Assembly: GCA_022447225.1 (NCBI GenBank)
Contig: JAKVAZ010000010.1
Coordinates: forward strand, 62,001 to 126,000
Direction of reading: 5' to 3'
Length of the DNA: 64,000 nucleotides
Source of the DNA: Fuerstiella sp.
Lineage (GTDB): Bacteria > Planctomycetota > Planctomycetia > Planctomycetales > Planctomycetaceae
Under the pieces are notes generated by a model. The model saw nothing but the letters and a program-made list of their open reading frames with translations. It was not told the DNA's origin and made no database searches. The position numbers and the translations under genes are program-made. Below, piece after piece: positions 10,234 to 62,479 of this stretch. Position 1 is the first letter of the stretch; each line of letters begins with the position of its first letter.

Positions 10234-10714
10234 TCCGTCTCTTCCAGCATTGACTGCGATATTCTCGTTGCCGCAATTCGATCGGCGACGACTGCTGACA
10301 GGACAATAGCCAGGAGCGACCGGTTCACGGAAGGCCGGACAGACCGTGTGGACTGTGAACTGCAGAATTGGGACAGGACACTGGACGGATGGCTACGGTG
10401 AAACGTTCTGTTCCGGATTCACCATTGGAGACACAGTTGACGTCAAGTCTTCCTGCCCGTTCAACGGTACCGGGCCTGTCAGCCCTCAGGGCTGTTTTGC
10501 GTATTCTGCGACCGCGAGCTGTGAATCTGCGGCCCGCCCGCGAACAGAAAGAACTTAACCGGTTGTGTCGTCGGCCTGTTGTCGACACACATCCGTAACG
10601 AATCGATGAGAAAAAAACAGCATCAGCACAGGCAATTCGCCTTTCGACATTCTATTGTGTGCGGCGCGTCATGTGTTCTGCCATTTTACCTGCCCGTATT
10701 CCCGGGAGCATTTC
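10234..10714. other. Divergent intergenic region
   Basis: This 481-base stretch separates glnS (-) from the large heme protein (+). The frame of the heme protein stays open back to 10655, but the segment before 10715 lacks signal-peptide character. No RNA gene or clear promoter was recognised. Confidence 0.45.
10703..10707 (+). promoter_or_regulatory. Shine-Dalgarno deciding the start of the large heme protein
   Basis: GGGAG lies 7 bases before the ATG at 10715, and a signal peptide follows at once. The longer frame beginning at 10655 has neither feature. Confidence 0.65.
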
Positions 10715-13700
10715 ATGAGATCAGGCACCGTTATCTGTTTCTCGGCAATCCTGACGACGATATCAACCGTAGCTTCTGTTGCCCGGTCAGACCAGCCGAT
10801 TCTGAAGTTAAATCCCGGCGATCATGTTGCTTACATCGGCAACACACTGGCTGACCGCATGCAGCACCACGGTTGGCTCGAGGCGCACATTCAGGCGGTC
10901 TTTCCCGACCACGACCTGGTTTTTCGCAATCTTGGGTATCCTGGCGATGAGCTGAAGCAACGGAGTCGAGCTGACAATTTCGGTTCACCGGATCAATGGC
11001 TGGCTAAAGTCAAAGCCGACGTGATTTTTGGATTTTTTGGATACAACGAAGCGTTTCGAGGCGAAGGCGGACTCAAATCCTTCCGACAGAACCTCACCGA
11101 GATTCTGGATGGCATGCGGCAGCAGCAGTACAACGGCAGATCTGCTCCCCGAATTGTGATGTTTTCGCCGATTGCTCATGAGGATCTCCATAGTCCGCAT
11201 CTGCCCGATGGTTCAGCAAATAATCAGAATCTTGGATTGTATACCGATGCGATGCAGGCGGTCTGTGCCGACAGAGACGTTGCATTCGTGGATTTGTTTC
11301 ATCCAACGCTGCAGATGTACACCACAGCTGACGAACCGTTGACACTCAACGGTATTCATTTGCTTGAACACGGCAACCAAAAGCTTGCCGAACATATTGT
11401 GGGCGTCTTGTTCGGTGAAGCAGCACAAATTCAAAAGTCGGGTACGGCATGGCCGAAGTTGCAGGCTGCGGTCCTTGACAAGAATCTTCACTGGTTTAGT
11501 CGTTATCGGGTCGTCGACGAATACAACGTGTTTGGCGGTCGTTCCAGACTCGCCTGGTTTGGCCAGTCCAACGGTGACGTGATGATGCGGGAGATGGAGA
11601 TCTTTGACGTGATGACGGCGACCCGCGACCGCCGCATCTGGGCGATCGCTCAGGGCGGTGATCTCACAATTACGGATGACAATCTTCCTGAAACGCTGCT
11701 GGTGAAGACCAACAAACCCGGGCCTCTACAAGGAGACAAATTCGAATATCTCAGCCCTCAGGGCACAGCAGAAACGATGACGCTTGCGGAGGGGCTGGAG
11801 GTTAACGTCTTTGCCTCTGAGGAAATGTTTCCGGAAATGATCAATCCTGTGCAGATGGCGGTGGATACAGACGGGCGTCTGTTCGTGTCCGTCTGGCCGT
11901 CGTATCCGCACTGGAATCCCACGAAAGCGCGTCGCGACCGGATTCTGTGTCTGCCGGATGAAGATGGCGACGGAGTTGCCGATGAGTGTCGTGTCTTTGC
12001 CGATGAACTGAATAGTGTCACCGGGATTGAATTCTGGGGGGGGGGATTACTGGTTGCCGCTCCTCCGGAAATCTGGTTCCTGAAAGACACGAATGGTGAT
12101 GATACTGCCGACGTGAGGATCCGTATGCTGCAGGGGGTCTCCAGTGCCGATACACACCATTCTGCCAATGCGATGTTGATCGGTACGGATGGAGGCCTCT
12201 ACTGGTCGAGAGGAATCTTTAATGTGGCCAGCATGGAAACACCAACCGGCACTTACCGGTCAGGTCGCAGCGGTGTTCATCGCTTTGATCCTCGGACCTT
12301 CGAAATGAGCTTTGTGTTTCCGATCGGTCCGAATCCGCATGGTCATGTCATGGATCAGTGGGGCTACCACTTTGCCAACGATGGCACCAGCGGCACTGGC
12401 AGTTACGTCAATATCGGAAATGGTGAAGGCAACAAACAGTGGTTTAAAAAACGTGTGCGTCCGGTTGCTGCAACCGGCATTCTTTCCAGTAGTCACTTTC
12501 CCGATGACATGCAGGGAAATTTTCTGATCTGCAACTGCATTGGTGTACTGGGGGTTCTGCAGCACGAAGTTCACTACAGCGGAGCTGATATAACGGCGAA
12601 AGAAATTGAACCCATCCTGCTAGCTGATGATCCGAATTTCCGACCGACTGATGTTGAAATCGGTGGTGATGGAGCACTCTATGTGTCTGACTGGAGCAAT
12701 GCGCTCATTGGTCACATGCAACACAACATGAGAGATCCTAACCGTGACGACGAACACGGACGAATCTATCGCGTTACTGCAAAAGGACGACCGCTGGTTC
12801 AAACACCCAGATTGAAAGGAAAGCCGGTTGCCGAAGTGTGTCAGGCATTCTATGCCAAAGAAAACAGCGTCCGTTACCGGGCCAGACTGGAGCTCAGTGG
12901 TCAGGATCCGCAAAACATCATGCACCAGGTCGGTAACTTTGCGGCAAATCTTGACTCTCAGAATCCGAGGGATGCACAGGCACTTCTGGAATGTCTGTGG
13001 GTCTTCGAAGAACAACGCATTCCCAACCCGGGCCTGTTGGCAATGGTTTACAGAGCCAGAGAACCACGTGTGCGAGCTGCCGCAATTCGCACTCTGGGCA
13101 ACTGGACAGCAAAGATCGGTGACTGGAAGCGATTGCTTAATCAGGCGGCGACGGACGAATCGGCACTGGTCCGCGCGGAAGCTGTGAAGACTGCGGTGTC
13201 GTTCGGCGGCAGTGATGCTGCCGAAGCGGTCTTTACTGTGTCCACACTGCCAACCGATCCGGAACTCGATACGGTACTGAAATACGCCCGGAGAAAACTG
13301 CAGCTGGACAACATCATCCAAGATTCAATCGCTGCACAACAGCCATTATCTGATGTCGCCAGAACGTACGCACTGCGGCACGCTGCGACATCCGATTTGC
13401 TCAGGCTGAGTCCGGATGCCGATCTGTACGAAGCAGTTCTCGGCCGACCGGACGCCTCACTCAAAGCATTGCGTACTGCACTGAAAGGACTTGCTGATAT
13501 TCGCGCGAGAAACACTCTGCCTTTGTTGCTTGAATTAATTGAGCAGTACGATCTGAACGATGGTGATGCGACGTCGTTAATGCGACTGCTTGTGCAGGTG
13601 CCGTTTACAGATCTTCGGCCGGAGCGGGGTCGACTGGAGGAACTCGCTGCAAACGGACGGAATTCCGTCACGCGTCAGGCTGCAGTTGCGGCCTTGATTA

Positions 13701-15175
13701 TTGCAGATAGCTCTGCTGATGATGCTTGGCTGGCGGCAAGTCGAGATGAGAGATCGGTCAGAGATTTTCTGAACGCCGTTCCCCATATTACAGACGATTC
13801 GCTGCGCGGATCGGTATTTACGATTGTACAGTCACTGCTGCATTCGGTGTCCGTTGCTCAACGTGAGTCACTGACCGATGCTGCCGTTCGAACGCTGGCT
13901 GCAGTTCCCGGACATGAGGAAGCACGTGTCAGCGAACTTTCTGGTCTGATGAAAGCGGGGCGCAGTCGATCTCCCGTTGTTCACACACTGCTTCAGATTC
14001 CGGTTGCGGACTGGCCCGAATCAGCCGTACAACCGATAGCCGACAACCTCATCGGCTACCTGACTTCAATGCCAACTTCCGGACGCACGGGTGAACAGGC
14101 GTCAGAAGCGGTGCGGCTGGCCAGGTCGCTGGTGCCGCGTCTGGGAAAAAATGACGGTAAAGCGCTGCTGGAACGTCTGGAAAACCTCGATGTGCGAGTG
14201 ATTGCAATCGGTACTGTTCCTGCCCGAATGATCTTTGATAAGGAACTTCTCGTGGCAGAAGTCGGTAAGCCGGTGGAGTTTCGTTTTTCCAACTCCGATG
14301 ATATGCCCCATAACTTTGCGATTGTACAGCCAGGTGCGATGCGGGAGATTGGTGAACAGGCCGAAGCAACAGCACGTGATCCTGACGCCATTCAGAGGCA
14401 TTACATTCCAAAATCGGACAAAGTTTTGCTGGCCAGTCGACTTCTGCAGCCTGAGGAGACTCAGTCACTCAGTTTCCAAGTTCCTGAGACTCCGGGCGTC
14501 TATCCTTATGTTTGTACCTACCCCGGACACTGGCGACGTATGTTCGGCGCTCTGTATGTTGTTGCCAGCCTGGAGGAATATCAGGCTGCACCGGAAACGT
14601 ATCTCGCGGACAATCCGTTACCGGTCAGGGACAGTCTGCTTGAAATGACCGGCCGTAACCGCGAATGGACGGTGCCCGATCTGCTGGCTGACATCAAATC
14701 TTTGAAAAACGGCAGATCGTTTTCCGTTGGAAAGCAACTTTTCAAAGTTGCCGGCTGTGTGGCCTGCCATCAACTCAACAACGAAGGTCGTGTGTTCGGT
14801 CCCGACCTGGCGAAGCTGGAACCAAAAAAACGGACGGTGAAACATCTGCTGGAATCGATGATCGATCCATCTAAGGAGATCGACGACAGATTTCGTTCCT
14901 GGACATTCGTGATGACTTCCGGAAAAACAGTGACCGGTATGATCATGAAAGAAACAGATGAAGAAGTGCAGGTGGTGATTGATCCGCTGGCCAAGAACAG
15001 TCCGACAGTGCTTAAACGGGCTGAGATCGATGAACGGGTCAGAAGTGACACGTCACTGATGCCGAAGAGTCTGCTGAACCGATTGACGCAGGAAGATATC
15101 TTCGACCTGTTTGCTTACGTCATTTCGGCGGGCGATCGCGAACACGTGTTATTCCATGGCCCGCACGATCACTGA
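10715..15175 (+). CDS. PVC-type multidomain protein: SGNH hydrolase, propeller dehydrogenase, HEAT, cupredoxin, cytochrome c
   Basis: This 1486-residue exported protein has a signal peptide in its first 25 residues. Domains in order are: an SGNH/GDSL hydrolase-like domain at about 33-240 (YIGNTLADRM, LGYPGDEL); a spacer; a membrane-bound-dehydrogenase-type beta-propeller at about 355-690 (GLEVNVFASEEMFPE, DTDGRLFVS, DEDGDGVAD); HEAT-like helical repeats at about 705-1090; a type 1 copper cupredoxin at about 1170-1290; and a C-terminal cytochrome c at about 1335-1486. The copper ligands fit His1199, Cys1267, His1272 and Met1276 (CTYPGHWRRM). The heme motif is CVACH, Cys1348-Cys1351-His1352. 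Both redox centres sit next to each other at the end, so electrons could pass from propeller-bound substrate through copper and heme; this is inference. The family is planctomycete/verrucomicrobial and its substrate is unknown. A run of ten G lies at 12036-12045 within the propeller. Confidence 0.93.
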   Translation: MRSGTVICFSAILTTISTVASVARSDQPILKLNPGDHVAYIGNTLADRMQHHGWLEAHIQAVFPDHDLVFRNLGYPGDELKQRSRADNFGSPDQWLAKVKADVIFGFFGYNEAFRGEGGLKSFRQNLTEILDGMRQQQYNGRSAPRIVMFSPIAHEDLHSPHLPDGSANNQNLGLYTDAMQAVCADRDVAFVDLFHPTLQMYTTADEPLTLNGIHLLEHGNQKLAEHIVGVLFGEAAQIQKSGTAWPKLQAAVLDKNLHWFSRYRVVDEYNVFGGRSRLAWFGQSNGDVMMREMEIFDVMTATRDRRIWAIAQGGDLTITDDNLPETLLVKTNKPGPLQGDKFEYLSPQGTAETMTLAEGLEVNVFASEEMFPEMINPVQMAVDTDGRLFVSVWPSYPHWNPTKARRDRILCLPDEDGDGVADECRVFADELNSVTGIEFWGGGLLVAAPPEIWFLKDTNGDDTADVRIRMLQGVSSADTHHSANAMLIGTDGGLYWSRGIFNVASMETPTGTYRSGRSGVHRFDPRTFEMSFVFPIGPNPHGHVMDQWGYHFANDGTSGTGSYVNIGNGEGNKQWFKKRVRPVAATGILSSSHFPDDMQGNFLICNCIGVLGVLQHEVHYSGADITAKEIEPILLADDPNFRPTDVEIGGDGALYVSDWSNALIGHMQHNMRDPNRDDEHGRIYRVTAKGRPLVQTPRLKGKPVAEVCQAFYAKENSVRYRARLELSGQDPQNIMHQVGNFAANLDSQNPRDAQALLECLWVFEEQRIPNPGLLAMVYRAREPRVRAAAIRTLGNWTAKIGDWKRLLNQAATDESALVRAEAVKTAVSFGGSDAAEAVFTVSTLPTDPELDTVLKYARRKLQLDNIIQDSIAAQQPLSDVARTYALRHAATSDLLRLSPDADLYEAVLGRPDASLKALRTALKGLADIRARNTLPLLLELIEQYDLNDGDATSLMRLLVQVPFTDLRPERGRLEELAANGRNSVTRQAAVAALIIADSSADDAWLAASRDERSVRDFLNAVPHITDDSLRGSVFTIVQSLLHSVSVAQRESLTDAAVRTLAAVPGHEEARVSELSGLMKAGRSRSPVVHTLLQIPVADWPESAVQPIADNLIGYLTSMPTSGRTGEQASEAVRLARSLVPRLGKNDGKALLERLENLDVRVIAIGTVPARMIFDKELLVAEVGKPVEFRFSNSDDMPHNFAIVQPGAMREIGEQAEATARDPDAIQRHYIPKSDKVLLASRLLQPEETQSLSFQVPETPGVYPYVCTYPGHWRRMFGALYVVASLEEYQAAPETYLADNPLPVRDSLLEMTGRNREWTVPDLLADIKSLKNGRSFSVGKQLFKVAGCVACHQLNNEGRVFGPDLAKLEPKKRTVKHLLESMIDPSKEIDDRFRSWTFVMTSGKTVTGMIMKETDEEVQVVIDPLAKNSPTVLKRAEIDERVRSDTSLMPKSLLNRLTQEDIFDLFAYVISAGDREHVLFHGPHDH
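12036..12045 (+). repeat. G10 homopolymer inside a coding sequence
   Basis: Ten consecutive G bases lie in frame in the propeller domain of the 1486-residue protein and encode part of FWGGGLL. Runs of this length are prone to slippage, which would truncate the protein before its HEAT, copper and heme domains. Confidence 0.9.
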
Positions 15176-16485: not shown

Positions 16486-17319
16486 TCAGGTCTTCTGCCT
16501 TTTCGGGGGAGCAGCGGCGACACCTTCCAGACCACCGCTCACACGCAGGACTTCTCCGGTGATCCATGCCGACGCGGGGCTGCACAGAAACGCGACACCG
16601 TTTGCGATATCTGCAGCTTCTCCCCAGCGTCCCAGCGGAACAGCTTTTTCAATCCGATTGACCATTTCATCCATGGAAATGTTCAGACTCTGGCGGCGCT
16701 GATCCATGACAGACTTATTGAAGTCTGTGTACACAGGGCCGGGACAAACCGCATTGACGCGGACACCATAGGCTGCCAGTTCCAGTGACAGCGTGCGCGT
16801 CAGCATAATGACGGCCGCTTTGGCCACGTTGTACGCCGCGACCAGTGCCGCGGGATTCTGCCCGTTGATCGATGAAATATTGACGATGGATCCGGACTCC
16901 TGCCGCTCCATGATGGTCCCGGCCGCACGACAGCAGTAAAACGTTCCGTTCAGAGTAATGTTCATGACGCGGTGCCACTCTTCATCGCTCAGATCGACTG
17001 TCGGCGTCACCGTCTGTCCGACTCCCGCATTGTTGACAAGGACGTCCAGGCTTCCGTGCTGTTCGACCACTTTGTCGAAGAACGCTGTGACTTCGGTGCT
17101 GTTGGCGACATCGAGTGCTGCCGGGTGAACACTGAGTCCGTCCTGCCGGAGACGATCAGCTTCGGTCTGCACTTTGTCCTGCTGCAGATCCGCCATCACA
17201 ACAGTGGCGCCATCGCGGGCCAGTCGTTCTGACATCGCGAGTCCGAGTCCCTGAGCCGCTCCGGTCACGACAGCGATCCGGCCGTCAAGATTAGTCCTGT
17301 CCGCTGGTTGATTACTCAT
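16486..17319 (-). CDS. SDR family NAD-dependent oxidoreductase (operon gene 5)
   Basis: This 277-residue classical short-chain dehydrogenase has the cofactor motif TGAAQGLG (residues 19-26), NNAG at 96-99, a catalytic Ser at 149/150 and the YxxxK pair Tyr163-Lys167. Asp44 at the end of strand 2 (VVMADL) suggests NAD rather than NADP. The ATG at 17319 overlaps the stop of the aldolase gene by four bases (ATGA), a sign of translational coupling. As the last gene of the operon it probably oxidises a hydroxyl of the sugar acid or sugar handled by the other products; the substrate is inference. Confidence 0.92.
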   Translation of the reverse strand: MSNQPADRTNLDGRIAVVTGAAQGLGLAMSERLARDGATVVMADLQQDKVQTEADRLRQDGLSVHPAALDVANSTEVTAFFDKVVEQHGSLDVLVNNAGVGQTVTPTVDLSDEEWHRVMNITLNGTFYCCRAAGTIMERQESGSIVNISSINGQNPAALVAAYNVAKAAVIMLTRTLSLELAAYGVRVNAVCPGPVYTDFNKSVMDQRRQSLNISMDEMVNRIEKAVPLGRWGEAADIANGVAFLCSPASAWITGEVLRVSGGLEGVAAAPPKRQKT

Positions 17320-18077
17320 GCTCTGACATCCTCAATAAACTGTCTGGAATTCTTCGCCATATGAGCAATGGCGTGTGTTGCCAGGTAACGCACCCCCAGG
17401 TCGGTATATCGTCGGGCCGCGTCCACATCCGCCGCAATACAGCCGGCGATTTTCCCGGCGGCTACAATACGTTTGATGCAGTCTTCAACACAGTTGACGA
17501 CTTTGGGGTCTTTGGCTTTTCCCGGGACTCCCAGACTGTTAGACAGATCGACCGGGCCGACGTAGTACACGTCGATTCCCTCGACTTCCAAAAGTTGATC
17601 CAGATTATTGGCTGCATCGATGTGTTCAATATGGGCGATTACCATCGTTTCGCGATTGGCGGCAGCCGTGTATTCCGGCATGGAACCTTTAAGTCCGTAT
17701 CCGGATGCTCTGACCCCGGCCAGTCCTCGATGTCCCTGGGGGCCGTATTTCGAACTGGCGACCATGTCTTTTGCTTCATCAACCTGGCTGATTTCCGGCA
17801 CGTGAATGCCCAGTGCACCAACGTCCAGGGCTCGGAGAATCAAATGACCCGTATTATGGGATACACGGATGATGGGTGTGACTTCTGCGTATTCCGCGGC
17901 ACGCACCATGTCTTCAGCCATACCAATATCGACCGGTCCGTGTTCCATATCGATCACCACGAAATCAAAGCCGAGCAGACCAACAATCTCGGTTAACCTT
18001 GCGGATGGCACATACACGAAGCTGCCGATCACGAGTTCGCCGGCCTCAAGTTTTCGTTTTGTCGTATTAACGTTCAT
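17316..18077 (-). CDS. HpcH/HpaI aldolase (2-keto-3-deoxy acid aldolase type)
   Basis: This 253-residue protein is a class II metal-dependent aldolase of the HpaI family, which cleaves 2-keto-3-deoxy acids to pyruvate and an aldehyde. Residues match the known site: His46 in DMEHG (base), Arg71 in IIRVS, and the metal ligands Glu151 (AHIEHIDAANN) and Asp177 (GPVDLSNSLG). Length is typical. Relatives include 2-keto-3-deoxy-L-rhamnonate and 4-hydroxy-2-oxoheptanedioate aldolases, and the sequence alone does not decide between them. It is flanked by two SDR genes with zero and minus-four base spacing, so the three are surely co-translated and probably act on one pathway. Confidence 0.92.
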   Translation of the reverse strand: MNVNTTKRKLEAGELVIGSFVYVPSARLTEIVGLLGFDFVVIDMEHGPVDIGMAEDMVRAAEYAEVTPIIRVSHNTGHLILRALDVGALGIHVPEISQVDEAKDMVASSKYGPQGHRGLAGVRASGYGLKGSMPEYTAAANRETMVIAHIEHIDAANNLDQLLEVEGIDVYYVGPVDLSNSLGVPGKAKDPKVVNCVEDCIKRIVAAGKIAGCIAADVDAARRYTDLGVRYLATHAIAHMAKNSRQFIEDVRA

Positions 18078-18854
18078 TCAGTTGTCTTTCTCATATTCAT
18101 AAAACCAGGGAACCTGCGAGAACATGCCGCCATCGACGTAGAGAGTCTGTCCGGTGACGAAAGTTGATTTTTCTCCCGCCAGGAACACGACCGCGTGAGC
18201 CACATCGCTGACGTTTCCCACACGTCCCATGGGGGTGCGAGAACCCCACTCTCCGGCGTAGTCAGGGTCTTCCAGGCTGGTTCTCTCAATTTCAATGGCA
18301 CCAGGTGCCACGCAGTTGACCGTGATCCCGTAACGGCCAAGCTCAACAGCACTGACAGTCGTAAATGTTTCGATTCCACCCTTGGAAGCACAATAGTCGC
18401 TCAACATGGGGAAGGGGGCTTTGTTGGCCGCCGAACCAATGTTGATAATGCGTCCACCGCGGTTTTGCATCAACTGTCCGGCCTGTTGCGTACACAGAAA
18501 TGTGCCTTTCAGATTGGTGCGGATTGTACGGTCCCAGTCTTCTTCCTTTAGATCGAGCATCGCTTTCCATGTCTGAACACCGGCGTTGTTTACCAGCAGA
18601 TCGATTGTCCCGGCCTGCTCGATAAATCGTTCGAACATCAGCGAAACCTGATCACTGAAGCCAATATCCGCCTGCAGCAGCCACGCGTCGCGGCCGGTCT
18701 CGCGGACAGCGTTTGCGGTTTCTTCAGCGCCGGATTCATCCCGACAATAATTGACTCCAACGTTCCAGCCGTCTTTGGCAAGGTCGACAGCGATTCCGCG
18801 TCCGACACCCTTGCTGGCACCTGTCACGAGGGCATTCCTCGTTTGTGTGCTCAT
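18078..18854 (-). CDS. SDR family oxidoreductase, glucose 1-dehydrogenase-like (operon gene 3)
   Basis: This 258-residue classical SDR has TGASKGVG (11-18), NNAG (89-92), catalytic Ser141 and the Tyr154-Lys158 pair in YCASK. Arg38 after strand 2 (NYCRD) suggests NADP preference, which contrasts with the Asp44 of the operon's other SDR. A PGAIEIERT loop and the C-terminal LYVDGGM are typical of the glucose 1-dehydrogenase/FabG-like group. A strong AAGGAGAG ribosome site stands before the ATG at 18854, and the stop abuts the aldolase start. It probably oxidises the sugar to a lactone or reduces a keto-intermediate; which of these is not shown by the sequence. Confidence 0.92.
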   Translation of the reverse strand: MSTQTRNALVTGASKGVGRGIAVDLAKDGWNVGVNYCRDESGAEETANAVRETGRDAWLLQADIGFSDQVSLMFERFIEQAGTIDLLVNNAGVQTWKAMLDLKEEDWDRTIRTNLKGTFLCTQQAGQLMQNRGGRIINIGSAANKAPFPMLSDYCASKGGIETFTTVSAVELGRYGITVNCVAPGAIEIERTSLEDPDYAGEWGSRTPMGRVGNVSDVAHAVVFLAGEKSTFVTGQTLYVDGGMFSQVPWFYEYEKDN

Positions 18855-18963
18855 TGACTCTCCTTTTGGTGCAGGCTTTTAAAGAATTACGCGTACTCAA
18901 CCGTTATTCCGGCTCTCGGACTGCGGATGAGGAACTGGTGGACCGACGTTGACGCTAACGACT

Positions 18964-20124
18964 TTACATCGAAACCCAACTCGAATTATTGTCGGCTGAC
19001 TCCACGGCGGAATAGATAAACTGCATTCCGCGAAGGCCATCGTTCACGGTGGGAAAATCGTATTCTTCGGTCTTCATCGGATTCCCGTCGAGATGTCGTC
19101 TGACCGCTTCCGCCACTCCAACATAGATATTAGCAAAGGCTTCCAGATAGCCTTCCGGGTGTCCGGTCGGGATGCGAGTCGCTGCTCCTGCCACGTCGGA
19201 CAGATAGCCCTGCCCGCGTGTCAGCGTCTGCCGTGGTTCCCCGTATTTGTAAACTTCAAGATAATTCGGATTTTCCTGGGCCCACTTAATCGCGCCTTCA
19301 GAACCGTAGACACGAAGCGTCAAACCATTTTCTTCACCGGTGGCCACCTGGCTGATGCACAGGACACCTTTGCCTCCTCCCTGGAAGCGGAGAAGCGCGT
19401 TGACATCTTCGTCCAGAACACGATCAGGCAGAAATGTGCTTTTGTCTGCACATAACTCGGAGACCGGATCTTCTGTGACATACTCCAGCAGGTTGACGCA
19501 GTGCGTTCCCACGTCTCCCAGTGTTCCTCCGATTCCTGATCGCTTGGGGTCCACACGCCACTCGGCCTGCTTCTGGCCCAGTTTCTCATGAGGCACCATG
19601 AGAAAATCCTGCAGATACTCAACGATGGCTTTGCGCACCGTGCCGATCTCACCGGACCGAACCATGTGTCGGGCATGTCGAATCAGCGGATGTCCGGTGT
19701 AATTGTGAGTCAGCGCGAAGATCAGTCCCGATTTTTCCACCAGTTCGACGAGCTCTTTTGCTTCGTCGAGCGTATGCGTCATGGGTTTATCACATACCAC
19801 GTGAAAGCCTGCGTCAAGAAACGCCTTTGCGATCGAGAAGTGCGAGGAATTTGGCGTAACAATACTCACAAAATCGATGCGGTCGTCGCTGGATCGCTGA
19901 GCCTCCGCTGTTGCCATCTGCTGGTACGTGTCGTAACAGCGGTCCGGATCCAGATAGAGTTGTTTTCCGGTGGTCCTGGTATTCTCCGGGTCCTGAGAGA
20001 AACTTCCGGCTACGAGTTCAATCTGACCATCAAGGGCGGCGACCAAACGATGGACACCGCCGATGAAAGCTCCCTGACCGCCGCCAACCATGCCCATTCG
20101 TAGTTTACGTTTCCAGGAATCCAT
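18964..20124 (-). CDS. Gfo/Idh/MocA family oxidoreductase
   Basis: The start ATG at 20124 is preceded by AGGAGA; the frame runs 16 codons further upstream without a ribosome site. The 386-residue protein has a Rossmann motif GMVGGGQGAF (11-20), the EKP-like motif CDKPM (Lys113-Pro114) and the catalytic-domain motif GDVGTHCVNL with Asp204 and His208. The family oxidises or reduces sugar hydroxyls, often at C3 or in myo-inositol, using tightly held NAD(P). No Tat signal is present, so this one is cytoplasmic, unlike many planctomycete members. It lies 109 bases upstream of the SDR and 147 bases after the isomerase gene, in the same direction. Confidence 0.92.
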   Translation of the reverse strand: MDSWKRKLRMGMVGGGQGAFIGGVHRLVAALDGQIELVAGSFSQDPENTRTTGKQLYLDPDRCYDTYQQMATAEAQRSSDDRIDFVSIVTPNSSHFSIAKAFLDAGFHVVCDKPMTHTLDEAKELVELVEKSGLIFALTHNYTGHPLIRHARHMVRSGEIGTVRKAIVEYLQDFLMVPHEKLGQKQAEWRVDPKRSGIGGTLGDVGTHCVNLLEYVTEDPVSELCADKSTFLPDRVLDEDVNALLRFQGGGKGVLCISQVATGEENGLTLRVYGSEGAIKWAQENPNYLEVYKYGEPRQTLTRGQGYLSDVAGAATRIPTGHPEGYLEAFANIYVGVAEAVRRHLDGNPMKTEEYDFPTVNDGLRGMQFIYSAVESADNNSSWVSM

Positions 20125-20271
20125 TTTCTGTCTCCTCTGTTGTTTATTGTTCTTTGTTTGGAGCGTACTCAAAGAGCTGAACGCGGCAGCACCAATCCCT
20201 CAGGCAAACACGCCGTTCCAGACCGGAAAGCCAGGGCTAACGGCTAAAGCCTGTGCCACAGGTTAGGTGAC

Positions 20272-21321
20272 TCAGCCAAATCCAAGAATCCGGCGGTTGG
20301 CTTCAACATCGACACCGCTGGCCGCGAAGTCGTCAAATGCAACATCGGACGTTTCGATGAGGTGTCTGGAAATAAACGGTGCACCTTCGGCGGCCCCCTG
20401 TTCCGGACTCTTGACCGCACATTCCCACTCCAGTACGGCCCACCCCGAATAACCTGCTTCGGTGAGCAGTGTAAAAACGCTGGTGAAATCTACCTGACCG
20501 TCACCCAGAGAACGGAACCGTCCGGCTCGACCGGCCCAGGACTGGTACCCGCCGTAAACACCGACGCGACCGCTGGGACGGAACTCAGCATCTTTCACGT
20601 GGAAACCTCTGATGCGGTCTTTGAAGATCCGAATGAATTCAAGATAGTCCAGTTGCTGCAGCAGGAAATGGCTGGGGTCATAGTTGATGCAGGCGGCAGG
20701 ATGGTCGTCCGTATGTTCGAGAAACATTTCGAAGGTGGCACCATCGTACAAATCTGAGCCCGGATGAAGTTCGTAGCCGAACGCCTTGCCCCGTTCCTGT
20801 GCATAGTCCAGCAGCGGTCTCCAGCGACGCGCCAGTTCTTTGAAAGCTTCGTCAATGACGCCCTCCGGCCGTTGAGGCCATGGATACGCCATGTGCCAGG
20901 CTAAGCCACCGGACAACGTCGGGATCAGGTCTATGCCCAGATGCACGGACGCGTCAACACATTTCCGAAGTTGATCGGCGGCCCACTCGGTTCTTTCATT
21001 GCCACGAAGACCGTCGGGATGGAAGCCTTCGAACATGATTTCGTAGGCAGGGTGGATCGCCATCACCTGACCGGAAAGATAAGCCCCCAGTTCGGTCGGC
21101 ACCAAGCCCATCTCACTGAGTTGGCCCCGATAGTCATCGCAATACGTTTTGGATTCGGCCGCAGTATCCCGATCAAAGACTCGAGTGTCCCACGCCGGAA
21201 TCTGCACGCCCTTGTAGCCGAGTCCGGCCACCCATTTTCCGATATTTTCCAGATTATTGTAGGGCTCTTCGTCTCTTAGAAACTGAGCAAGAAATATCGC
21301 CGGACCTTTGATGCCTGGCAT
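20272..21321 (-). CDS. Sugar phosphate isomerase/epimerase family protein (AP-endonuclease-2 TIM barrel)
   Basis: The start ATG at 21321 has GGGGAG six bases upstream; the open frame extends 23 codons beyond it without a ribosome site. The 349-residue TIM-barrel protein carries the metal ligand set of this family: Glu184 (ELHPGS), Asp215 (NYDPSHF), His241 (FHVKD) and Glu298/Glu300 (VLEWEC). The family includes xylose isomerase-like, inosose dehydratase-like and 3-keto-glycoside-processing enzymes. Pairing with a Gfo/Idh/MocA gene is common in planctomycetes and fits sequential oxidation and isomerisation or elimination on a sugar. It is the first gene of the operon and divergent from the DUF1553 gene at 22142. 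Confidence 0.9.
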   Translation of the reverse strand: MPGIKGPAIFLAQFLRDEEPYNNLENIGKWVAGLGYKGVQIPAWDTRVFDRDTAAESKTYCDDYRGQLSEMGLVPTELGAYLSGQVMAIHPAYEIMFEGFHPDGLRGNERTEWAADQLRKCVDASVHLGIDLIPTLSGGLAWHMAYPWPQRPEGVIDEAFKELARRWRPLLDYAQERGKAFGYELHPGSDLYDGATFEMFLEHTDDHPAACINYDPSHFLLQQLDYLEFIRIFKDRIRGFHVKDAEFRPSGRVGVYGGYQSWAGRAGRFRSLGDGQVDFTSVFTLLTEAGYSGWAVLEWECAVKSPEQGAAEGAPFISRHLIETSDVAFDDFAASGVDVEANRRILGFG

Positions 21322-22141
21322 AGAACGCTCCCCGTGGTCCAATTCTGGTATTGAAAACCAACCCGCATCAGGCACATCGAGAATGATCAAATCGATTTAT
21401 TGCCGGACACAACGGATCTGGCCTGCGCGATGCTCACCACCAGTGATGAACACGTCGACTCCTGGTGGCTACGATGACAGTGTATTTGAGACGTAATTGC
21501 ATTGATTCGCAAGCGGATTCACTCACTGTCAGCTGTGGAACACAATTCAGTCAATCAAAACGTATTCTTGGTTCGCTCGATCTGTTTCATCAATCTACAG
21601 GAAGAAATGGGACTGGATCTCATCAGAACGATTGAGATTCCACGGACTGAAGGCAGAAAACTTATCAGTGACTGTTGGCTTTTCCTGCGGGAAAAAGAGA
21701 TCACACGGTCAGTTCGGTTTCCCGAATCTGTTCTGCTTGCCACGATGGCAGTCACAGGGAATCACAAACAATTTGAAAAGTCCCTGGCAATTGTGCCCGA
21801 AGGTCTCGACATCGTCCGTTAAATCCGGTGCAAGTCTCATGGCTGCCATCTCGGCGAACCTGTTTCGGTCGAAATACGTCGACTTCCTGCGAGATTACGG
21901 GGGGGTAACACAAGGTATATCAGTGTTTTGACACCGACCGACCTGCAATTTCCAGCCAGCTGTTTCGTCTCAGTCCGACTCCAGTTAGAATTGTGAGTTC
22001 AGTCGACCTGTTCATATTGAGTCAGATTATCAAAGAGACCAGTGGAAGTTCCGAGGTGCCGCCGCGCAGTCCTCCGCATGGTCTGAGGCAATTCCGCGTT
22101 AGAATCGGGTGAGACTTGCAGCAGGGATAGAGGATAAATTT
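21322..22141. other. 820-base divergent intergenic region
   Basis: The stretch separates the catabolic operon (-) from the four-gene DUF1553/DUF1501 operon (+). One 106-codon open frame at 21502-21822 shows no recognised domain, no signal peptide and no ribosome site, and I do not call it. Promoters of both operons must lie here, but none is clear. Confidence 0.45.
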
Positions 22142-61063: not shown

Positions 61064-62479
61064 ATGAGTACAGACGCCCCTGTCAGATCTGAAGTCGAAA
61101 TAGGTGACTACCAGTACGGCTTCCACGATTCCACAGAAAACTACGAATTCAAAAGCCGCAAGGGGCTGGACGCGGATGTTGTTGCGCAGATTTCTGAGAT
61201 GAAGAACGAGCCTGCATGGATGCGGGAGTTTCGTCTGCGGTCACTTGAAATTTTTCAGTCGAGACCGATGCCGAGCTGGGGCGGCGACATGTCCGACCTC
61301 GATTTCAACGAAATTTTCTATTACATGAAAGCGGCGAAGGAACAGGGCCGCAGCTGGGATGACGTCCCCGACGACATTCGCAAAACTTATGACCGCCTGG
61401 GGATTCCCGAGGCTGAAAAGAAGTATCTCTCCGGAGTGAAGGCTCAGTACGAGTCTGAAGTTGTTTACGGAAGTCTGAAGGAGGACCTCGCAAAACAAGG
61501 TGTCCTGTTCACCGATACTGATTCGGCTCTTCGTGATCATCCGGAGATGTTTCAGCAGTACTTTTCAACGATCATTCCTCCGGAAGACAATAAGTTTGCT
61601 GCTCTGAACAGTGCTGTGTGGTCGGGTGGATCATTTATTTATGTGCCGCCTGGAGTGAATATCGAATTTCCGCTGCAGGCCTACTTCCGCATCAACAGCC
61701 AGAACATGGGGCAGTTTGAGCGGACATTGATCATCGTCGATGAAGGAGCATCTGCGCACTATGTCGAAGGCTGTACGGCTCCTACGTACAGCAGCGACAG
61801 CCTGCACAGTGCCGTGGTGGAAATTGTGGTGAAAAAGGGTGGCCGATTCCGCTACACCACAATTCAGAACTGGTCGAACAATGTGTACAACCTGGTCACC
61901 AAACGTGCGATGGCCTATGGCGATGCACTGATGGAATGGGTTGACGGGAACCTCGGCAGTAAACTGACCATGAAGTATCCGGCGATCTATCTGATGGAAC
62001 CTGGTGCCCGCGGAGAAACACTTTCAATCGCATTCTCCGGTGCGGGGCAGCATCAGGACGCCGGCGCCAAGATGGTGCATTGTGCTCCCAACACGAGTAG
62101 TCGCATTATCAGCAAGAGTATCAGTAAGGACGGCGGTCGCAGTAGCTATCGCGGACTGGTCAAAGTGGAAGACGGTGCTGGTCAGTGCAGGAGCAATGTT
62201 GTGTGCGATGCGTTAATTCTTGATCCGGCCAGTAAGAGTGACACATACCCGTACATCGAAGTCGAAGAACAGGACGTGGCGATCGAACATGAAGCCAGTG
62301 TGAGCAGGATTGCGGAAGAACAGCTGTTTTATCTGATGAGCCGTGGTCTGAGTGAAGCTGAAGCCAGTGCTATGATTGTTACTGGGTTTATTGAGCCGCT
62401 GGTAAAAGAATTGCCCATGGAATACGCCGTTGAAATGAACCGGCTGATTGAGCTGCAAATGGAAGGTAGTGTTGGCTGA
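61064..62479 (+). CDS. sufB: Fe-S cluster assembly scaffold SufB
   Basis: This 471-residue scaffold subunit forms SufBC2D and assembles Fe-S clusters with SufC and SufD. The right-handed beta-helix core is clear in [51 protein letters not shown] and [19 protein letters not shown]. The C-terminal block [18 protein letters not shown] and [12 protein letters not shown] is of the Bacillus/actinobacterial kind, where the E. coli Cys of LFFCLQ is Leu. No inserted intein is seen, unlike some actinobacterial SufB. No strong ribosome site precedes the ATG. It is 21 bases before sufD. Confidence 0.96.

Follow-up and report, generated by a model that had tools for sequence, protein, structure and literature searches.

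Organization of the gene and of its product

The window—64,000 nucleotides of Fuerstiella sp., positions 62,001 to 126,000 of contig JAKVAZ010000010.1—carries on its plus strand a frame open over 1486 codons, from ATG 10715 to the stop at 15175; a TTG lies upstream of this ATG in the same frame, at 10655. All features of the protein given below are on this strand. Residues 1–26 (10715..10792) form a probable Sec signal peptide, as judged by eye from the translation, and the c-type heme also implies export. From the N- to the C-terminus, the profile scans give an SGNH-like domain, a DUF7133/TIGR02604 propeller, HEAT repeats, a Copper-bind domain and a TIGR02603 heme domain, so that the parts announced by a preliminary description of this exported protein (SGNH-like, dehydrogenase-type propeller, HEAT, type 1 copper and cytochrome c) are all recovered by profile matches.

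Sequence similarity makes the protein a member of a large planctomycete family. Its best named relative, from a Fuerstiella sp. MAG, is matched over residues 1–1486 with 86% identity in the best segment, and matches were found in 58 of the 59 genomes searched, the source genome counted in. In the latter alone, the counts above the cut-offs are 10 genes for TIGR02604 and 23 places for TIGR02603. The family alignment used hereafter has 116 rows; 95 of them entered a tree of residues 30–1040, 21 fragments or unclassified rows being omitted.

No conserved neighbour gene emerged: the commonest family is found in 15 of 41 loci, at a median distance of 5.9 kb. Elsewhere in the window a DUF1501 gene comes after each of three PSCyt2/PSD1 genes, two of which also have PSCyt1 (1459-3726/3763-5271, 22109-24784/24819-26270 and 26322-29294/29380-30867). 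There is also a minus-strand cluster (16486-21390) of two SDRs, an HpcH/HpaI aldolase, a Gfo/Idh/MocA gene and a sugar-isomerase-like gene; the Gfo/Idh/MocA gene has weak matches to glycoside 3-dehydrogenase families, far below the cut-off.

The SGNH-like front domain

The SGNH-like domain (residues about 30–232, 10802..11410) matches Lipase_GDSL_2 (PF13472) at residues 51–222 with 45 bits for a cut-off of 32.9. The score for the SGNH/GDSL fold is thus passed, although the Ser nucleophile and the Asp-x-x-His motif of a hydrolase are not found. In the family alignment G42-N43-T44 (10838..10846) replaces the GDS of block I, and N212-x-x-H215 (11348..11359) the Asp-x-x-His of block V. The nucleophile position 44 is occupied, in the 116 rows, by T (89), A (11), N (7), G (4) or E (1), with 4 gaps, hence by Ser in none of the 112 scorable rows. 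Position 212 is N in 112 rows and D in one (3 gaps), the catalytic Asp being therefore missing from 112 of 113 scorable rows, and position 215 is H in 112 (4 gaps). We considered Thr44 as a substitute nucleophile and ruled it out, Ala, Asn and Gly being also found there. With catalytic Ser and Asp lost almost throughout the family, esters are not indicated as substrates. The conservation of the His beside the lost nucleophile suggests a binding pocket rather than decay. Nor, within this branch, is the SGNH domain the unusual companion that it had seemed: every aligned row long enough to cover this region has it, although the rows were gathered by whole-protein similarity.

The propeller

The propeller of sGDH type (residues about 347–690, 11753..12784) is matched by DUF7133 at 347–565 plus a second stretch (3.7e-64), and by TIGR02604 with 190.5 bits (cut-off 122.2). 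The AlphaFold model of residues 236–712 (mean pLDDT 77.9, pTM 0.82) is a six-bladed propeller with the sGDH fold: Foldseek returns sGDH 1cq1 as best match (E 5.6e-10, TM about 0.4), then HHIP, AA12 and Asd. A search of the PDB with the propeller profile returned two teneurin-like chains only.

Two loops of this propeller probably bind Ca2+, to judge from their motifs. In the first, D415/D419/D423 (11957..11983), Asp is found in 115, 113 and 115 of the 116 rows, and in 18, 19 and 19 of the 19 sequences of an alignment with paralogs; in the second, D458/D462/D466 (12086..12112), in 115 of 116 rows and 19 of 19 sequences at each position. The pair H481-H482 (12155..12160) is kept in 115 of 116 rows for each His, and H482 is the presumed counterpart of the catalytic His in sGDH, according to the motif and to an hhalign pairing with the GSDH His (probability 2%, E 0.024 only). 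Other His of the pocket are also widely kept: H667 in 115 rows, H670 and H681 in 113, H399 in 106 and H542 in 104.

P539-N540 (12329..12334) stands, by motif equivalence judged by eye, at the place of the Arg/Asn pair that binds PQQ in sGDH. N540 is invariant (116/116), and position 539 is P in 92 rows, A in 22 and T in 2, the PQQ Arg thus being found at the place so assigned in 0 of 116 rows. In AA12 the corresponding Arg/Asx pair shows about 94% conservation (PMC6881810). Among the paralogs of the source genome the Arg, again by eye, is kept in 4 of 9. PqqC, the only Pqq protein sought, is present in 1 of 21 genomes, which is not the source genome, and a control set of 14 genomes gave no match. 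PF07995 is not among the Pfam matches of the 1486-residue protein up to E 1. The absence of the Arg in all rows and of a PqqC match in the source genome speaks against a PQQ-type dehydrogenase.

The source genome has 21 places above the cut-off for the 3-keto-disaccharide hydrolase family PF06439. At one of them (L203, G000:C11:15100-16875) the domain precedes a GSDH-type propeller in a single fused protein, and two further loci, L199 and L208, look similar by eye.

The HEAT spacer and its module slot

The HEAT spacer (residues about 772–1150, 13028..14164) is recognized by HEAT_2 at 772–839, the remainder being assigned by its position between domains. Within it, residues 1046–1056 (13850..13882) mark a slot, hereafter slot A, that is empty here and filled in relatives by a PA14 or F5/8C module, as deduced from alignment, Pfam and tree. 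The insert, near residue 1047, reaches up to about 172 residues, and in relatives chosen by motif Pfam finds PA14 in 4 of 4 and F5_F8_type_C_2 in 4 of 4. When the filling of slot A is combined with the carrier found in slot B (see below), the 95 tree rows divide into PA14/Cu (61), F5/8/Cu (15), PA14/heme (10) and none/Cu (9); three of these last nine are of genus Fuerstiella, six are others. We also observed in one MAG tandem copies (L071, 5374-9351 and 9386-13954), of which a single one has a PA14 motif. Carbohydrate-binding modules, including PA14, have been described in planctomycete-type cytochrome genes, whose function is given as unknown; the cytochrome domains concerned there are PSCyt/PSD, and F5/8C is counted as a protein-interaction domain (PMC5615132).

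The copper domain and its exchange for a cytochrome

Slot B holds the type 1 copper domain (residues about 1162–1284, 14198..14566) with the ligands H1199, C1267, H1272 and M1276. Copper-bind (PF00127) matches residues 1170–1282 with 26 bits (cut-off 21.2), the sequence matches auracyanin A 2aan (5.5e-10) and the structure model auracyanin 6kol (E 1e-10). Auracyanins A and B and azurin, which have the same ligand set, are the best sequence and fold matches in the PDB for this part; the spacing C-x4-H-x3-M is that of the azurin loop. Unlike them, the present domain sits beside a heme in a chain of 1486 residues, and it scores far below the cut-off of the azurin equivalog TIGR02695 (23.8 bits against 105.1). 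Each of the four ligands is kept in 87 of 87 copper-class rows; since a motif that holds the Cys and the second His defined this class, it is H1199 and M1276 that test it independently. A loss of copper ligands in close orthologs had been named beforehand as the observation that would speak against an electron path; the ligands are present, and the path is not refuted.

Across 13 genomes PF00127 missed the copper domain of the protein under study itself, and a profile specific to the family was used instead. It detects two copper domains in the source genome, that of the 1486-residue protein and that of a split pair discussed below. A published survey of azurin genes was restricted to 100–200 residues, a filter by which embedded copper domains fell outside it, and its single planctomycete match was judged a contamination or a wrong annotation (PMC8779525).

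The heme domain follows closely, the 72 residues from Met1276 to Cys1348 agreeing with the distance of about 70 first estimated. It is a predicted c-type heme site of the TIGR02603 family (14711..15127; 98.8 bits, cut-off 68.15), with Cytochrom_C at residues 1339–1382, CVACH at 1348–1352 and M1449 as distal residue. C1348, C1351 and H1352 are C/C/H in 95 of 95 rows that have the residue, and the Met in 93 of 95. The domain is comparable with the C-terminal heme domain of Kustd1711, a diheme cytochrome of Kuenenia (7zs0), whose residues 190–312 align with 1346–1469: M1449 falls on Met292, the distal heme ligand there, and the heme potentials of Kustd1711 are near +350 mV (PMC11791136). In Kustd1711 a Ca2+ beside the heme raises the potential, and at the N-terminal site the contacts come from backbone, propionate and water (PMC11791136); in contrast with the present protein it has two heme domains and is devoid of copper, propeller and SGNH.

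In 10 of the 95 tree rows a second cytochrome c takes the place of the copper domain, between the same neighbours. These heme-form rows include Blastopirellula marina DSM 3645 (L121) and Alienimonas chondri (L129), in which Pfam recognizes Cytochrom_C in slot B with 3.2e-22 and 1.2e-17. With a few candidates scored per genome, 15 or more of the 297 class genomes proved to have the heme form. The tree of residues 30–1040 requires three changes between copper and heme. We nevertheless dropped the idea of three independent captures of heme in place of copper: against the diheme paralogs, the slot B cytochromes form one clade with support 100/100, so that one capture, spread by recombination, may be the simpler history. 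Whichever history is right, the same position is served by a copper carrier in some members and by a heme carrier in others, a situation also offered by plastocyanin and cytochrome c6.

The His-rich end

The chain ends with the His-rich tail HGPHDH (15155..15172). We defined such a tail as at least two His beyond the heme domain, and scored it only in rows whose C-terminus is present, i.e. 81 copper and 9 heme rows. It is found in 67 of the 81 copper rows, for 1.95 expected from windows of the same length in the same proteins, and in 0 of the 9 heme rows. Its frequency differs with slot A (PA14 55/58, F5/8 8/15, none 4/8), and 14 of the 81 copper rows are without it. Additional fused copper loci have it in 17 of 18 cases, one of them (L238) being identical to an earlier row (L052). 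It is absent from 15 of 15 heme-swapped loci, whose genomes are partly shared with the heme rows, and from 15 of 15 diheme paralogs, most of which end at the heme domain with no tail at all. The TIGR02603 paralogs of the source genome were also read: of its 23 places 20 were taken—the protein's own, that of the split pair and C7:508765 being set apart—18 were read and 16 have a C-terminal heme domain. By eye, none of these 16 copper-free proteins has a His-rich tail, one ending in a single His and another having two His inside its last helix. His clusters located anywhere in the chain were tried as a marker and are uninformative, being about equally frequent in heme rows and paralogs, so that only chain ends were counted. 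Two copper members with poor tails, L057 and L064, have an internal His-rich stretch (near residues 1637 and 1580 respectively), between copper and heme or within the heme domain.

A split form exists in the source genome (G000:C2, L063), with SGNH-propeller-HEAT and HEAT-copper-heme as adjoining genes. Twelve split copper-heme subunits were seen in 198 genomes, and an SGNH-propeller gene lies upstream in all 11 loci with upstream DNA. By eye, 9 of 11 split subunits have two or more His right after the signal peptide (e.g. NHHHDHDD), two do not, and in none of the 11 does the heme domain run straight into a His-rich tail. L214 and L217 extend past the heme domain, the latter into a BD-FAE type esterase; this extension is the one also recorded as L065 (7275-10283), at the same place as L217, and L214 has a length similar to that of L065. 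In a quick tree, which came with long-branch warnings, the split forms group together in a single clade (SH-aLRT 97), which falls outside the main tail-bearing clade of fused forms; an outgroup row, L066, also has a tail. Since the clade with His at the opposite end lies outside the main tail-bearing clade, the simplest history is that a His-rich end was gained repeatedly, on each occasion together with copper.

This distribution argues, with fair probability, that the His-rich end recruits copper. A rather unlikely alternative is that it binds another metal or a charged glycan, its link with copper reflecting shared descent. The independent changes are indeed few: the test corrected for descent has two independent copper/heme pairs only, of which on average 1.8 go the expected way (p 0.5), and some copper rows live without a tail. 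Shared descent, on the other hand, accounts poorly for a split clade with the His-rich stretch at the opposite end of the chain and for copper-free paralogs devoid of it. His-rich N-termini are known on other exported copper proteins, CjMCO and some Cu,Zn-SODs; here, by contrast, the stretch is at either end of the chain and disappears where heme replaces copper. The His-rich N-terminus of CjMCO comes with two extra coppers and its removal did not lower turnover (PMC13151041), and the His/Met tail of AccA binds Cu(II) and is dispensable in cells (PMC13006917).

Discussion

The preliminary description had proposed a built-in electron path from a possible substrate domain to a one-electron carrier. 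For the C-terminal part this proposal is strengthened: the ligands are conserved, and the swap of the copper domain for a cytochrome c, with the flanking domains unchanged, supports an electron-carrying role. The front part is not supported as proposed, the SGNH domain being without catalytic Ser and Asp and the propeller without PQQ Arg. Our own reading, on which we would place an even bet, is that of an exported glycan-acting or glycan-bound protein with a copper-to-heme relay and a copper-recruiting end. The pseudo-SGNH fold, together with the PA14 or F5/8C module in relatives, would hold a saccharide; the propeller, probably Ca-loaded, would draw electrons without PQQ from the bound glycoside or from a reduced donor, a hydroxyl of the sugar perhaps becoming a keto group in the process; the HEAT repeats would fix the distance. 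The type 1 copper would then take the electron and hand it to the TIGR02603 heme, which would pass it to a soluble cytochrome or an oxidase, the His-rich end recruiting copper for the type 1 site. The steps are not equally firm. Sequence comparison itself gives the domain order, the ligands, the loss of the esterase residues and of the PQQ Arg, the exchange of copper and heme and the association of the His-rich end with copper. Electron flow from copper to heme is probable, and the origin of the electrons in the propeller is a tentative proposal, somewhat short of even.

Several systems resemble parts of this assembly. The PVC-type heme-binding CxxCH proteins (TIGR02604 + TIGR02603, DUF7133) are the closest, both models being matched above cut-offs here; compared with them, this branch adds the pseudo-SGNH domain, the slot for copper or a second heme, the slot for PA14 or F5/8C and the His-rich end. 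The propeller fold is common to sGDH and to AA12 pyranose dehydrogenase, of which CcPDH also unites a dehydrogenase, a cytochrome and a binding module within a single chain (PMC6881789); the differences are that the PQQ Arg is absent here and that copper and heme c stand instead of heme b. Cupredoxin and cytochrome c also occur as alternative fused domains in copper nitrite reductases with a tethered redox partner (PMC13324648), whereas no nitrite reductase core is present here. Among the matches listed from the open-licence literature we recognized no paper that treats the SGNH-propeller-copper-heme architecture.

The statement that no substrate is proven needs a qualifier. Among the matches listed, one member has a reported activity, the verrucomicrobial Lac161_ORF7 (TIGR02604 + HEAT_2 + Cytochrom_C/TIGR02603), a copper-free protein reported as a beta-galactosidase: it hydrolysed lactose with a Km of 1.8 mM and a kcat of 13.2 per s (PMC5342196). 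It likewise has propeller, HEAT and heme, and, in the passages of the report used here, no reported SGNH or copper domain, a likeness of domain kinship only; expression was in BL21(DE3)pLysS with IPTG, these passages show no control with protein from an empty vector, and the printed kcat/Km is ten times the value given by its kcat and Km (PMC5342196). Given the lactose hydrolysis reported for this copper-free relative, the propeller may act on glycosides. It might even be a glycoside hydrolase like Lac161_ORF7, the copper-heme end serving another purpose, or only sensing or anchoring; the glycan-binding modules found in slot A of relatives would suit this alternative, which we regard as improbable and which leaves the exchange of copper and heme unexplained. 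BL21 has an active lacZ, the mass of LacZ is close to that of Lac161_ORF7, and heme c is unlikely in a protein made in E. coli. With the Km of Lac161_ORF7 likewise near the value for E. coli LacZ, and no empty-vector control having been found, the host enzyme is a possible source of the activity; and, as it was measured on a protein made in E. coli, the lactose activity may need no electron path.

Alternatively the propeller could only bind a ligand, as HHIP does with its sGDH-like propeller, the copper-heme pair relaying electrons from an outside donor while the protein is held on a polymer. HHIP is among the best fold matches, the SGNH residues are dead, relatives have binding modules, and no conserved partner gene was found; but the His and Asn of the pocket are almost invariant, which speaks against mere ligand binding, and the BD-FAE esterase carried by one split subunit (L065 and L217 being the same, in the same genome) hints at a turnover of saccharides, so that we give this alternative little likelihood. 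That the propeller oxidises sugars with PQQ and feeds the copper and the heme, on the model of the fungal pyranose dehydrogenase (AA8-AA12-CBM1), is very improbable: sGDH and AA12 structures match it best, H482 and N540 are kept and PQQ import is possible, but Pro, Ala or Thr stands at the Arg place in every row, PqqC was not found in the source genome and PF07995 is not matched up to E 1.

Returning to the exported glycan protein with its relay, an oxidation of the glycoside to a keto sugar would link glycoside action to the electron chain. A more detailed form of this proposal, improbable as a whole, would have a PQQ-free, His-lined pocket of sGDH type, possibly a metal site, making keto sugar for the 3-keto-disaccharide hydrolases; a plug-in slot for copper or heme; and a His-rich copper loader that the protein carries itself, absent without copper and placed at the opposite end when the gene is split.

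Two easy misreadings of this family, as an esterase and as a PQQ dehydrogenase, are removed. If the activity of Lac161_ORF7 is true, the propeller acts on glycosides, and the redox chain would be tied to a possible glycosidase. The natural exchange of copper and heme, with a His-rich end linked to copper, provides matched pairs for carrier function and for the metal loading of an exported copper protein.
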